A stretch of 28,063 bases of DNA from a virus, in the IMG/VR virus record IMGVR_UViG_3300044237_001398, positions 1 through 28,063 of that record, one strand, 5' to 3'. Each line of letters starts with the position of its first letter. Positions within the stretch are counted from its first letter, which is position 1. The notes beneath the pieces are model-generated. The model was not told the origin of the DNA. It saw only the letters and a program-made list of their open reading frames with translations, and made no database searches. The translations under genes and the position numbers were made by a program. This document shows positions 8,240 to 11,832 of this stretch, piece after piece.

Positions 8240-9159
8240 GAGCGTTTTTTCTCCAATTTGTAGTATTCATAGGTGGTTTGCAAACCATTTTCCAAGGAAG
8301 TTTTAGGTTTCCAACCAAGATTTTCTAGTTTTGAAATATCAAGAAGTTTTTTCATCATGCCATTTGGTTTATCAGTGTCCCATTTTACTTCACCTTCAAA
8401 CCCAACAGTGTCTTTAATAATGTCTGCGAGTTCTTTGATGGAATAATCAACACCACTTCCCACATTGATTATATCACCATCATCGTAGTTCTGCATTAGG
8501 AACAAACAAGCATCAGCGAGGTCTTCAACATAGATAAACTCTCTTCTAGCAAGTCCAGTTCCCCAAAAAGTAACGCTATCACCACCATCATGGAACTTAG
8601 AGAGCATAGATCCTATCACATGACCATTAGCCTGATTGAAATTGTCCTTTGGACCATACACATTACAAGGTTGAGCAGTAATAAAATTACAATCATACTG
8701 CTTTCTATACGCCTGACACAGTTTAATACCAGCAATTTTAGCGATAGAGTATGCTTCATTAGTGGGTTCAAGTGGTCCTGAGAGAAGATATTCCTCCCGC
8801 ATCGGTTGAGGGCAATGCTTAGGATAGATGCATGATGAACCCAGAAACAAAAGTTTCTTTACCCTATATTTGTGCGAACACTTGATAATATTGTTCTGAA
8901 TTGCCAGATTATCAAGCAAAAAGTCAACAGGATGAGCAACATTGTCACCAATTCCACCGCATTTTGCTGCTGCTAAGAAGACAAAATCAGGTTTTTCTTG
9001 CTTAAAGAGAGCAGAAACCTGCTCATGATCACACAAATCCACCTCTTTTCTGGTTTTGAGGATCAAATTTCGATACCCAAGTTCTCTCAATCTCCTTACG
9101 ATTGCAGATCCAACCATGCCAGTGTGACCTGCAACGTAAATTTTATCACTCGTATGCAT
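8236..9159 (-). CDS. fcl: GDP-L-fucose synthase (GDP-4-keto-6-deoxymannose 3,5-epimerase/4-reductase)
   Basis: 307 residues from the ATG at 9159, which has AGGAGG eleven bases upstream inside the end of gmd and overlaps it by 14 nt. The longer reading to 9210 has no ATG support. The Rossmann motif GHTGMVG is at 11-17. [22 protein letters not shown] (catalytic Tyr and Lys) and CNVYGPKDN follow the WcaG/Fcl/GMER pattern, and [13 protein letters not shown] follows later. The enzyme epimerises C3 and C5 and reduces C4 of the Gmd product with NADPH to give GDP-L-fucose. It lies directly after gmd, as in most bacterial clusters. An alternative is a ColC-like role on the ColD product. Confidence 0.92.
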
Positions 9160-10216
9160 AACGACTGAATCCTCCTGATGTAAGAAGCTCATCTCTCTTT
9201 GCAAACTCAATGTCCTTATTTACCATCTCTTGAATCATCTCATCAAGAGTAATTTCTGGTTTCCAACCAAGAGTTTCCCTTGCTTTGGTTGAATCGCCAA
9301 GCAAAGTCTCAACTTCAGCGTCTCTAAAGTACCTGGGGCTGACGCTAATCACCACATTTCCGGTGTTTTTATCGATTCCGATCTCGTTTACGCCCTCACC
9401 TTGCCACTGAATATCCATTCCAAGGCACTTACCTGTGCGTTCACAGAACTCTCTGACAGTAATTTGTTCCATAGTAGAGATAACAAAGTCATCAGGTACA
9501 TCGTGTTGCATCATCATCCACATTGCACGAACGTAATCCTTAGCATGACCCCAGTCACGCTTAGCATCCAGGTTGCCCAGTCGCAGAGTCTTCAGAAGAC
9601 CAAGACTGACCCGTGCAAGGTCTCTTGTAATCTTTCTGGTGACAAAAGTCTCACCTCTACGGGGTGATTCGTGATTGAAAAGAATACCAGAACACGCAAA
9701 CATACCGTATGACTCACGATAGTTCTTAGTAATCCAGTGAGCATACAGTTTTGCTACTCCATATGGAGACCGTGGATAGAAGGGAGTGGTCTCTTTCTGA
9801 GGATTTTCTTGCACCAATCCAAACATTTCTGAGGTAGATGCCTGATAAAACCTAGTCGTCTTCTCCAAACCGAGGATACGAATTGCCTCAAGGATACGAA
9901 GTGTTCCAAGCGCATCACTGTTAGCAGTATACTCTGGTGTTTCAAAAGAAACCTTTACATGACTCTGAGCACCTAGATTATAGATCTCATCAGGTCGAAT
10001 CATCTGAATCAAACGAATCAAATTGGTAGAATCAGTCAAGTCACCATAGTGCATGTAGAAGTTTTTACTTCCATTAAAGACATGGTTTACTCTATCAGTA
10101 TTGAATGAGGAACTTCTTCGCTTAATACCATGCACCTCATATCCTTTTTCCAGGAGAAACTCAGCAAGATAAGAACCATCTTGCCCTGTCAGTCCTGTAA
10201 TCAGTGCTCTTTTCAT
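9146..10216 (-). CDS. gmd: GDP-mannose 4,6-dehydratase, first gene of the sugar operon
   Basis: 356 residues, close to the usual family length. The Rossmann motif [14 protein letters not shown] starts at residue 8. [22 protein letters not shown] and the catalytic YGVAK follow, then [14 protein letters not shown] and TRKITR, all hallmarks of Gmd. It removes water from GDP-D-mannose to give GDP-4-keto-6-deoxy-D-mannose, the branch point for Fcl and the ColD-like enzyme. It is the first gene of an unbroken operon. The ATG lies about 22 nt after a TATAAT hexamer and about 30 nt after an intrinsic terminator. Its 5' leader holds a structured RNA, so it is probably under attenuation control. No strong Shine-Dalgarno sequence is seen. 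Confidence 0.95.
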
Positions 10217-10238
10217 ACGTTCATTCTACTATCTCATT

Positions 10239-10267
10239 ATTATACAAAAAAAGGCAGGTTTATGCAA
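10239..10267 (-). promoter_or_regulatory. Candidate sigma70-like promoter for the sugar operon
   Basis: On the minus strand a perfect TATAAT (10244-10239) lies 17 bases after TTGCAT (10267-10262), a weak -35. Transcription would begin near 10232 and leave a leader of about 15 nt before gmd. The -35 lies inside the terminator hairpin, so one sequence may end the upstream transcript and start the next. Alternatively the whole leader is transcribed from further upstream and this AT-rich stretch is not a promoter. Confidence 0.4.
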
Positions 10268-10273
10268 CCTACC
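10246..10273 (-). terminator. Intrinsic terminator before gmd
   Basis: On the minus strand GGTAGGTT pairs with AACCTGCC (8 bp, one G-T wobble) around a 5-nt loop, followed at once by seven T residues (plus-strand A run 10246-10252). This is a clear rho-independent terminator. It stands between the structured leader RNA and the gmd start codon, where a conditional terminator (attenuator) would be expected. Confidence 0.8.
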
Positions 10274-10282
10274 TTAGAGGGA

Positions 10283-10383
10283 AATTTCATGCACGCCACT
10301 TGCTCTTTTACCTGAAGCAAGAAACAGGGCGGGAGTGTTACCTCCATCCGCACCACTTGCTCTTAGGTAAAGCAAGAAACCAT
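10283..10383 (-). ncRNA. Structured leader RNA, candidate wcaG-type motif
   Basis: Immediately after the stop of the 67-residue gene come two copies of a hairpin with a CTTGCT/AGCAAG stem (plus 10356-10376 and 10299-10321). They flank a GC-rich hairpin whose core is GGAG/CTCC (10332-10345), extended by GCG/CGC and GG/CC pairs. The loops of the two outer hairpins are complementary over 7 nt (TTTACCT and AGGTAAA), so a kissing interaction is possible; alternatively AGCAAG of the first copy can pair with CTTGCT of the second to enclose the middle hairpin. A terminator and gmd-fcl follow. A wcaG RNA motif is known from comparative genomics in cyanobacteria and cyanophages next to exopolysaccharide genes such as wcaG. 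The match is by position and features, not by a covariance search. Confidence 0.55.
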
Positions 10384-10587
10384 TCAGAGTGATTTGAATT
10401 TGCCAGGGAATGCTTCTTTCAGTGCAGCAACTACCTGCTCCAATCTAGCAGCATCTCCACTACCACCGCCGTCACATTTTTCGTGTGCTTTCGCTTCAAG
10501 TGCTTTGAGTCTGCCCTCGACTTCTACGTCATACTTGGACATCGATGCACCAGTCGCAGACTTCGCTGCCTTTCCTTGAGTTGCCAT
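10384..10587 (-). CDS. Small charged hypothetical protein, 67 residues
   Basis: I do not recognise a family with confidence. The protein has an Ala/Lys/Ser/Thr-rich N-terminus, then YDVEVEGRLKALEAKAHEK and, after a Gly/Asp-rich turn, a second helix AARLEQVVAALKEAFPGKF. The regular hydrophobic spacing in both helices suggests a short helical hairpin or coiled coil. No signal peptide, membrane segment or catalytic motif is present. The stop codon (TGA at 10386-10384) abuts the structured leader RNA of the sugar operon. About 66 AT-rich nt separate its ATG from the gene upstream, with no clear promoter. Confidence 0.7.
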   Translation of the reverse strand: MATQGKAAKSATGASMSKYDVEVEGRLKALEAKAHEKCDGGGSGDAARLEQVVAALKEAFPGKFKSL

Positions 10588-10650
10588 TTGTACAATTAAT
10601 AACTTCTCTGTTTATTTAGTTTTTTAGAAGGGTCTAGTGACTCCACCAGT

Positions 10651-10736
10651 GCTGTTAAAGTCCATCCGTGACTTTGGGATCATCCCGACCAGGGCTGTTA
10701 GAGTCCATCCGTGACTTGATGAGATCAATCCTTGCT
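10651..10736. repeat. Imperfect 43-bp tandem duplication at a gene's 3' end
   Basis: The 24-bp block at 10651-10674 recurs at 10694-10717 with one mismatch (A/G at the eighth base). The offset is 43 bp, which is not a multiple of three. The minus-strand copy met first by the ribosome is read in frame. The second copy is entered in another frame and immediately supplies the TAA stop. Confidence 0.85.
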
Positions 10737-10924
10737 CTTAAATTTACTTCAGAATCTCTTTGAAAATTACCGTAGGCAATATTCATAAGAGTTTGAACTG
10801 TCTTCCATCCATGATACTTGTTATGCGATCTTACTCTCATATAGTAATCATGGAGCAGAAGTTTAGCATCATGTACCGTCATCCACTCATGTATAAGAGT
10901 TAGGTTGATGGCATCATTTTCCAT
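10655..10924 (-). CDS. Hypothetical protein, 89 residues, C-terminus altered by a repeat
   Basis: I recognise no family. The first 70 residues look helical and folded, with a His/Tyr/Trp-rich centre (LLLHDYYMRVRSHNKYHGW) and a basic-acidic helix RARIDLIKSRMD. The ATG overlaps the stop of the 77-residue gene (TAATG), so translation is coupled. The final 15 or so residues come from a 43-bp duplicated segment read out of its earlier frame, ending in KVTDGL. If the duplication were absent, the frame would run on to a tail ending NSTGGVTRPF before a TAG near 10624. The gene is probably intact in its core with a replaced tail. Confidence 0.7.
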   Translation of the reverse strand: MENDAINLTLIHEWMTVHDAKLLLHDYYMRVRSHNKYHGWKTVQTLMNIAYGNFQRDSEVNLRARIDLIKSRMDSNSPGRDDPKVTDGL

Positions 10925-11157
10925 TAAGAGGCAGACACATTGTCTTTTATATAGCAGGGTTTACCTGTCAACCACTTAGGATACTCTGCATCTTCCATTG
11001 CTAGAAGGCATTGTGCCTGGTTGTCGAACAGGTAAACATCAAACCACTTACGATTGTAGTAGTCTTGCTCCTGTAATCTATAATCAGGTTTACCATTGAG
11101 TTCAATGATACCCTTTTCAACAAACCTAAAAGGTCCACGTTCTAGTAAAACTTTCAT
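10924..11157 (-). CDS. Hypothetical protein, 77 residues
   Basis: I recognise no family. The sequence is mixed alpha/beta in character, with short strands such as FRFVEKGIIEL and YRLQEQDYYNRKWFDVYLFD, rich in aromatic residues. It ends with WLTGKPCYIKDNVSAS. There is no membrane segment or signal peptide. It sits in a chain of three small genes (70, 77 and 89 residues) with overlaps of 4 and 1 nt, all downstream of the TTGACG/TATAAT promoter at 11389-11417, which suggests early expression. Confidence 0.72.
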   Translation of the reverse strand: MKVLLERGPFRFVEKGIIELNGKPDYRLQEQDYYNRKWFDVYLFDNQAQCLLAMEDAEYPKWLTGKPCYIKDNVSAS

Positions 11158-11758: not shown

Positions 11759-11832
11759 TCGGGGTAAAAGGATTTGAACCTTCGGCCACTCGCTCCCAAA
11801 GCGAGTGCTCTGCCTGATTGAGCTACAGGGGA
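11759..11832 (-). tRNA. tRNA-Pro-like gene (TGG anticodon) with mispaired acceptor stem
   Basis: The D-arm (GCTC/GAGC), anticodon arm (CTCGC-TTTGGGA-GCGAG, anticodon TGG) and T-arm (GAAGG-TTCAAAT-CCTTT) are well formed. The acceptor is not: the 5' strand is TCCCCTG and the 3' strand TACCCCG, so four C residues oppose four C residues. A normal partner would be CGGGGTA. The gene may be a tRNA pseudogene, may need editing, or may function as a processing marker. The 3' discriminator would be A. Confidence 0.65.

Follow-up and report, generated by a model that had tools for sequence, protein, structure and literature searches.

Comparison with related viral loci indicates that the wcaG RNA upstream of a GDP-sugar operon belongs to a larger composite RNA as its 3′ half, with two more pseudoknot modules (10716-10640) upstream of the known element. 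In the reading preferred here, to which a probability of roughly 0.47 is assigned, this tandem-pseudoknot RNA would end the upstream transcript, a terminator would follow, then an overlapping promoter starting the sugar operon, and the array would serve end protection or processing. The window, i.e., the whole stretch of DNA that was analyzed, comprises the 28,063 bases of an IMG/VR virus record, and all RNA features discussed lie on its minus strand. It is related to the T4-like cyanophages S-SM2, Bellamy, and SynMITS9220M01. Weinberg et al (2010; PMC2864571) describe wcaG as probably a riboswitch, associated with exopolysaccharide and high-light genes, and later cyanophage papers repeat a riboswitch role for sugar or high-light genes. 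A sequence-only reading of the window had likewise proposed a leader that senses a metabolite or condition.

Results

Identity and layout of the RNA

When the window was analyzed with cmscan against Rfam 15, a full-length match to RF01761 was obtained (94.7 bits versus a gathering cutoff of 42; E = 4e-17 over the window), which establishes that the RNA belongs to this family and answers the key check attached to the sequence-only reading. The hallmarks of wcaG, two CUUGCUU-type hairpins flanking a GC-rich hairpin, together with the UGGUGCGG and UGGCG tails, are present (Table 1). Both CTTGCT/AGCAAG repeats were found on the minus strand, as were the intervening GC-rich hairpin and the loop words quoted earlier; the repeat pattern matched twice, compared with 0.00 matches expected in shuffles, and the whole stretch folds better than shuffled sequence (z = −2.35). 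The observation itself is confirmed, with every named sequence feature at its place, and its interpretation, taken overall, is partly supported. Unit B begins directly past a TGA stop codon (10386-10384, −). Unit C is composed of S1 (CCUG/CAGG), loop 1 (UUU), and S2 (CUUGCUU/GAGCAAG), followed by UGGCG. Behind gmd, the GDP-sugar operon contains an epimerase, a DegT-type aminotransferase, family 10 and family 11 glycosyltransferases, and further epimerases. Elsewhere in the window, cmscan called a tRNA at 11765-11827 (46 bits) that is absent from the ARAGORN list and is possibly degenerate or unusual.

Table 1. Features of the window in 5′ to 3′ order on the minus strand.
Feature	Positions	Strand	Basis
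phrog_481 gene (77 aa, function unknown), conserved upstream neighbour	10924..11157	−	PHROGs, E = 4.5e-34
Pseudoknot module Q1, AGUC-ACGGAUG-GACU...CCUGGUCGGGA	10683..10716	−	model R1, 48.9 bits, E = 5e-12
Pseudoknot module Q2	10640..10673	−	model R1, 49.5 bits, E = 3e-12
67-aa ORF (phrog_35121, function unknown) between module pairs	10384..10587	−	PHROGs
wcaG RNA RF01761 (units B, P2, C, and GCGUGCAUGAAA tail)	10285..10384	−	cmscan 94.7 bits, model 1-98
Unit B, wcaG 5′ repeat, pseudoknot-type hairpin	10356..10383	−	RF01761 positions 1-29; model R2, 25.4 bits
P2, GC-rich hairpin of wcaG	10329..10351	−	RF01761 alignment
Unit C, wcaG 3′ repeat, H-type pseudoknot	10294..10328	−	model R2, 54.4 bits; S1/S2 covariation
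Intrinsic terminator AAGGTAGGTT-GCATA-AACCTGCCTT and T-run	10246..10275	−	terminator also in 129/142 relatives
−35-like TTGCAT inside terminator hairpin, weak (3/6 to consensus)	10262..10267	−	motif
−10 box TATAAT, right after T-run, 17 nt from −35-like box	10239..10244	−	motif
gmd (GDP-mannose 4,6-dehydratase), sugar operon gene 1	9146..10216	−	Pfam PF16363, E = 8e-153

Pseudoknots within each repeat

For comparison, ∼100 related viral loci were fetched by pattern, and more were added later. In unit C, S1 forms between the four bases 5′ of UUU and the first four of the hairpin loop, which gives an H-type pseudoknot. In the metagenomic set, which was chosen by sequence patterns, is biased to close relatives, and holds distinct sequences that are not independent events, S1 was paired in 179 of 180 cells with 12 different combinations (45 distinct sequences; shuffled mean 133, maximum 150). 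This test is not circular because only the S2 hairpin had been used to select the sequences. With 59 distinct sequences, 99.6% of S1 cells were paired and both sides had changed at three of the four pairs; for the whole structure of unit C, 99.7% of cells were paired, with 136 double changes, and slid controls gave 34–55%. Loop 3 was invariably NNAAA. S1 of unit B is shorter and weaker, with at least three pairs in 43 of 49 cases (shuffled mean 37.7). The conserved long-range pairing is that inside each repeat and has the form of an H-type pseudoknot.

Covariation in homologous leaders, proposed earlier as a check on the structure, was found for S1 and S2 of unit C; the loop–loop pairing between repeats is not conserved. 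Although the complementary loop words are present in the window, at least five base pairs can form in only 4 of 52 arrays, all four being close relatives of the window, and the mean is 3.04 compared with 2.81 in shuffled sequence. Kissing loops were rejected, being rare among arrays and requiring loop halves that are both already used in S1 pairings; the complementarity probably arises as a side effect of the two S1 sequences. The proposed 9-nt antiterminator fared similarly. Its segments ACCTAAGAG (10368-10360) and CTCTAAGGT (10279-10271) lie where they had been located and pair at eight of nine positions, but the pairing is not conserved. At locus L003, the first repeat is identical to that of the window, yet the terminator arm is not complementary to it; complementarity to the arm was at shuffled level among 114 distinct arrays (4.57 versus 4.53, z = 0.7), and over 82 arrays the excess above shuffled did not go beyond z = 1.7. 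The antiterminator formed by the first repeat and the terminator arm was rejected as specific to the window sequence. More broadly, no conserved pairing was found between wcaG and the terminator arm, which exists in 65 different sequences, and a classical antiterminator is therefore unlikely. The long swapped hairpin of the minimum-energy fold was likewise rejected, as it can form in only 41 of 93 arrays.

Modules upstream of wcaG

The Q modules 5′ of wcaG follow the pattern AGUC-NNGGNNN-GACU...CUGGUCGGGA or ...CUGGUGGAGUC. Their stem, together with two contacts that the loop makes with the 3′ side, was paired in 100% of cells, with double changes at six of six pairs. In the window, Q1 overlaps the 3′ end of the ORF 10924-10655, and the UAA in loop 3 of Q2 (10657-10655) is the stop codon of this ORF. 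The same four modules follow each other in the order Q-Q-B-C without interruption, within ∼200 nt, in S-CREM1. In S-PM2, a Q module occupies the usual place of B, and the module types therefore look interchangeable. A module variant, AGUC-UUUGCCAAU-AGACU...CUAGAUGGU, was seen in L259-L263 and L267 (∼2000-2060; 2620-2650 in L259), at the place that Q modules take in other phages. As for the 67-aa ORF between the module pairs of the window, a CTAAATA late-promoter-like motif (10619-10613, −) precedes it, and its place is taken by different small ORFs in other phages.

Strong Q and B/C matches were found at one locus only per genome in the complete phage genomes searched (155–231 kb). Such a distribution speaks against a device that protects mRNAs in general; it would fit a riboswitch or a trans-acting RNA equally well. 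A general intercistronic protection of many mRNAs was rejected because of this single-locus distribution.

Terminator and promoter downstream of wcaG

The intrinsic terminator and the start of gmd are as the sequence-only reading had claimed, with a hairpin at 10275-10251 followed by the T-run and, 30 nt past the latter, the ATG at 10216 (−). Among C units with enough downstream sequence, an intrinsic terminator begins 14–26 nt past the unit in 129 of 142, and across relatives the start codon mostly lies 25–37 nt past the T-run. Promoters and ORFs were called mechanically, a promoter call being an inference from motifs. On this basis, TATAAT with at most one mismatch occurs within 15 nt after the T-run in 97 of 107 distinct cases (78 exact), compared with 63 of 234 (14 exact) after other terminators on the same contigs. 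Within the terminator loop, relatives have TTGACA (many), TTTACA, or TTGCAT, spaced as in a promoter. A σ70-type promoter pair was found between wcaG and the gene that follows in 98 of 129 distinct flanks versus 6.7% of random windows, and a late-type motif in six more of these flanks. Thus, the sugar operon probably has its own promoter downstream of wcaG. About 10% of arrays are without a terminator and run directly into the next gene or tRNA, the RNA there also being a leader.

Neighboring genes

A phrog_481 homologue lies one or two genes upstream of the RNA in 13 of 17 phages, whereas the biggest homology cluster downstream comprises 4 of 17. The stop codon of an ORF is found between −30 and +12 nt from the start of the module chain in 230 of 295 chains, versus 10.7% of random positions, and is often inside a module, as in Q2 of the window. 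phrog_481 is present in 461 cyanophage records. In a prospective set of 12 isolates taken only because they carry it, six gave model or Rfam matches (E < 0.01); every one of these is on the strand of phrog_481 and lies at this gene or downstream of it. Three more of these isolates (L260, L262, and L263) carry a related module as judged by eye; two Prochlorococcus phages with phrog_481 had no module in the part that was read, and the corresponding part of S-RIM44 is filled by a long gene. phrog_481 is a small protein syntenic with the RNA, and the two might act together.

Downstream, 4 of the 16 named isolates have a sugar gene as the next feature and 6 have a tRNA; in the others it is a high-light gene or some other gene. 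Sugar-nucleotide genes frequently come next at the metagenomic loci, where 47 of 98 next genes match Epimerase and 14 match CTP_transf_like. This comparison does not support the claim that the leader gates the whole sugar operon, a promoter being usual after wcaG and the next feature being something other than a sugar gene in 12 of the 16 isolates.

Single units of the same type were also seen outside such arrays, directly after a tmRNA (L063 6801, an 84-kb record also carrying GOLLD RNA) and, in other phage contigs, directly after tRNA genes (tRNA-Pro, tRNA-Asp; L216 2672, L226 3207, L227 6177, and L242, minus-strand index 2657). MAG contigs of Treponema or Spirochaetaceae (L122, L126, L129, and L131) also contain units that share this core; in the tRNA-gene-rich L129, the unit lies upstream of a gene with an RNA ligase-like protein (by eye only). 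A host origin was rejected: a strict pattern scan of 84,980 species returned 11 stretches, none titled as a cyanobacterium, and two of the stretches (L123 and L132) look like stray cyanophage contigs.

Discussion

The composite RNA would consist of H-type pseudoknots in tandem, up to four in number (Q1, Q2, B, and C in the window), each followed by UGG(U/C)(G/C)G. It would sit at the 3′ end of a transcription unit that contains phrog_481 and is often a tRNA/small-ORF operon. The intrinsic terminator just past unit C would close the phrog_481 transcript, and the putative promoter, with its −35-like box in the terminator hairpin, would open the next unit, which in the window is the GDP-sugar operon. 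The tandem pseudoknots may set where the upstream transcript ends or shield this 3′ end from host exonucleases, or they may be freed as a stable RNA. The module structure, the single locus per genome, the terminator and promoter motifs, and the upstream synteny all come from comparison; that the upstream transcript ends after wcaG, and that the sugar mRNA starts downstream of it, is what we infer. Protection or processing of the 3′ end is the weakest step of the proposal, and it is about as likely that this end gives rise to a free RNA acting in trans.

The original assignment as a riboswitch or attenuator (Weinberg et al, 2010, and the sequence-only reading), in which the pseudoknots bind a metabolite and set terminator read-through into the sugar operon, is considered unlikely. 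It would account for the close spacing of RNA and terminator and for sugar-nucleotide genes being the commonest next genes at the metagenomic loci; one locus per genome suits a dedicated switch, and wcaG is ranked a probable riboswitch in PMC2864571. However, the pairing of the RNA to the many different terminator arms is not conserved, a promoter usually lies after the RNA, and the next feature in most isolates is not a sugar gene. Under this assignment, the downstream promoter would provide an additional constitutive or later supply.

That nascent pseudoknots modify RNA polymerase and help it to pass the terminator, like the HK022 put RNA or Bacillus EAR, appears improbable. Structured RNA right before a terminator, with no conserved pairing to it, is the expected look of such an antitermination element. 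The terminator–promoter overlap is conserved, however, so that read-through is not needed by the downstream genes, and modules are also found where no terminator follows. It is just as doubtful that modules, terminator, and promoter act at the DNA level, as recombination-prone cassettes for swapping neighbor genes, like PeSL. A constant element with varied genes behind it, the exchange of module order and type between phages (e.g., Q for B in S-PM2), and the terminator–promoter composite would fit such punctuation, but the many compensatory changes in stems and pseudoknots indicate that the RNA structure is under selection, something that homologous recombination by itself would not require. 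A type III toxin–antitoxin RNA was also considered, prompted by the tandem pseudoknots.

The window RNA resembles the wcaG RNA of Weinberg et al (2010; PMC2864571) in phage group, in the two hairpins, and in P2. It differs from that account in forming the 3′ half of an RNA that extends further upstream, by two more modules, and in that the downstream genes of the isolates are not consistently sugar or high-light genes. A terminator and promoter follow wcaG, so a position in a 5′ UTR is doubtful. The manA RNA (RF01745), the other orphan cyanophage riboswitch candidate, is unlike wcaG in fold and sequence and lies outside the array, 373 nt downstream of wcaG in S-CREM1. There (L213, 3468-3682), it almost exactly fills the spacer between tRNA-Leu and tRNA-Asn, so that a role as an mRNA 5′ UTR is doubtful there too.

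The STAXI motif (RF01728), a pseudoknot in two or three tandem repeats (PMC2864571), is alike in being a tandemly repeated pseudoknot, but occurs in other bacteria with other neighbors; no RF01728 match at the gathering threshold was obtained in the window and 13 loci scanned. The promoter/stem-loop (PeSL) motifs of T4-type phages (Arbiol, 2010; Comeau, 2014; both as cited in PMC4503421) likewise combine a terminator with a promoter between exchangeable gene modules, and a combination of this kind was found here at a gene-module boundary, as judged by sequence motifs only. Unlike PeSL, the −35-like box here lies within the terminator hairpin, and a pseudoknot array precedes it. A literature search on cyanophage pseudoknots and on Syn9 start sites returned nothing usable. 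Consecutive pseudoknots also form the upstream pseudoknot domain of tobacco mosaic virus RNA, just past the stop codon in the 3′ UTR. The latter is a plant RNA virus, and its likeness to the cyanophage array is one of layout alone. The larger single-locus RNA, the terminator–promoter overlap, and the upstream synteny appear to be new, as do the covariation-supported pseudoknots, unless S1 was already drawn in the wcaG figure of 2010.

Since 2010, wcaG has figured among the orphan riboswitch candidates; this accepted role probably has to be reconsidered. Tentatively, and with somewhat less than an even chance, RF01761 would not be a riboswitch but the 3′ fragment of a single-copy, four-pseudoknot cyanophage RNA behind phrog_481 that closes a tRNA/small-ORF transcript; the single units behind tRNA and tmRNA genes in unrelated phages would make this RNA a general phage 3′-end element. 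If wcaG belongs to the end of the upstream transcript, the hunt for a ligand of the sugar operon aims at the wrong gene. The 3′-end prediction is directly testable in cultured S-PM2 and S-SM2 and, if it is true, the wcaG family would offer a way into the question of how marine phages preserve their own RNA while host mRNA is degraded.
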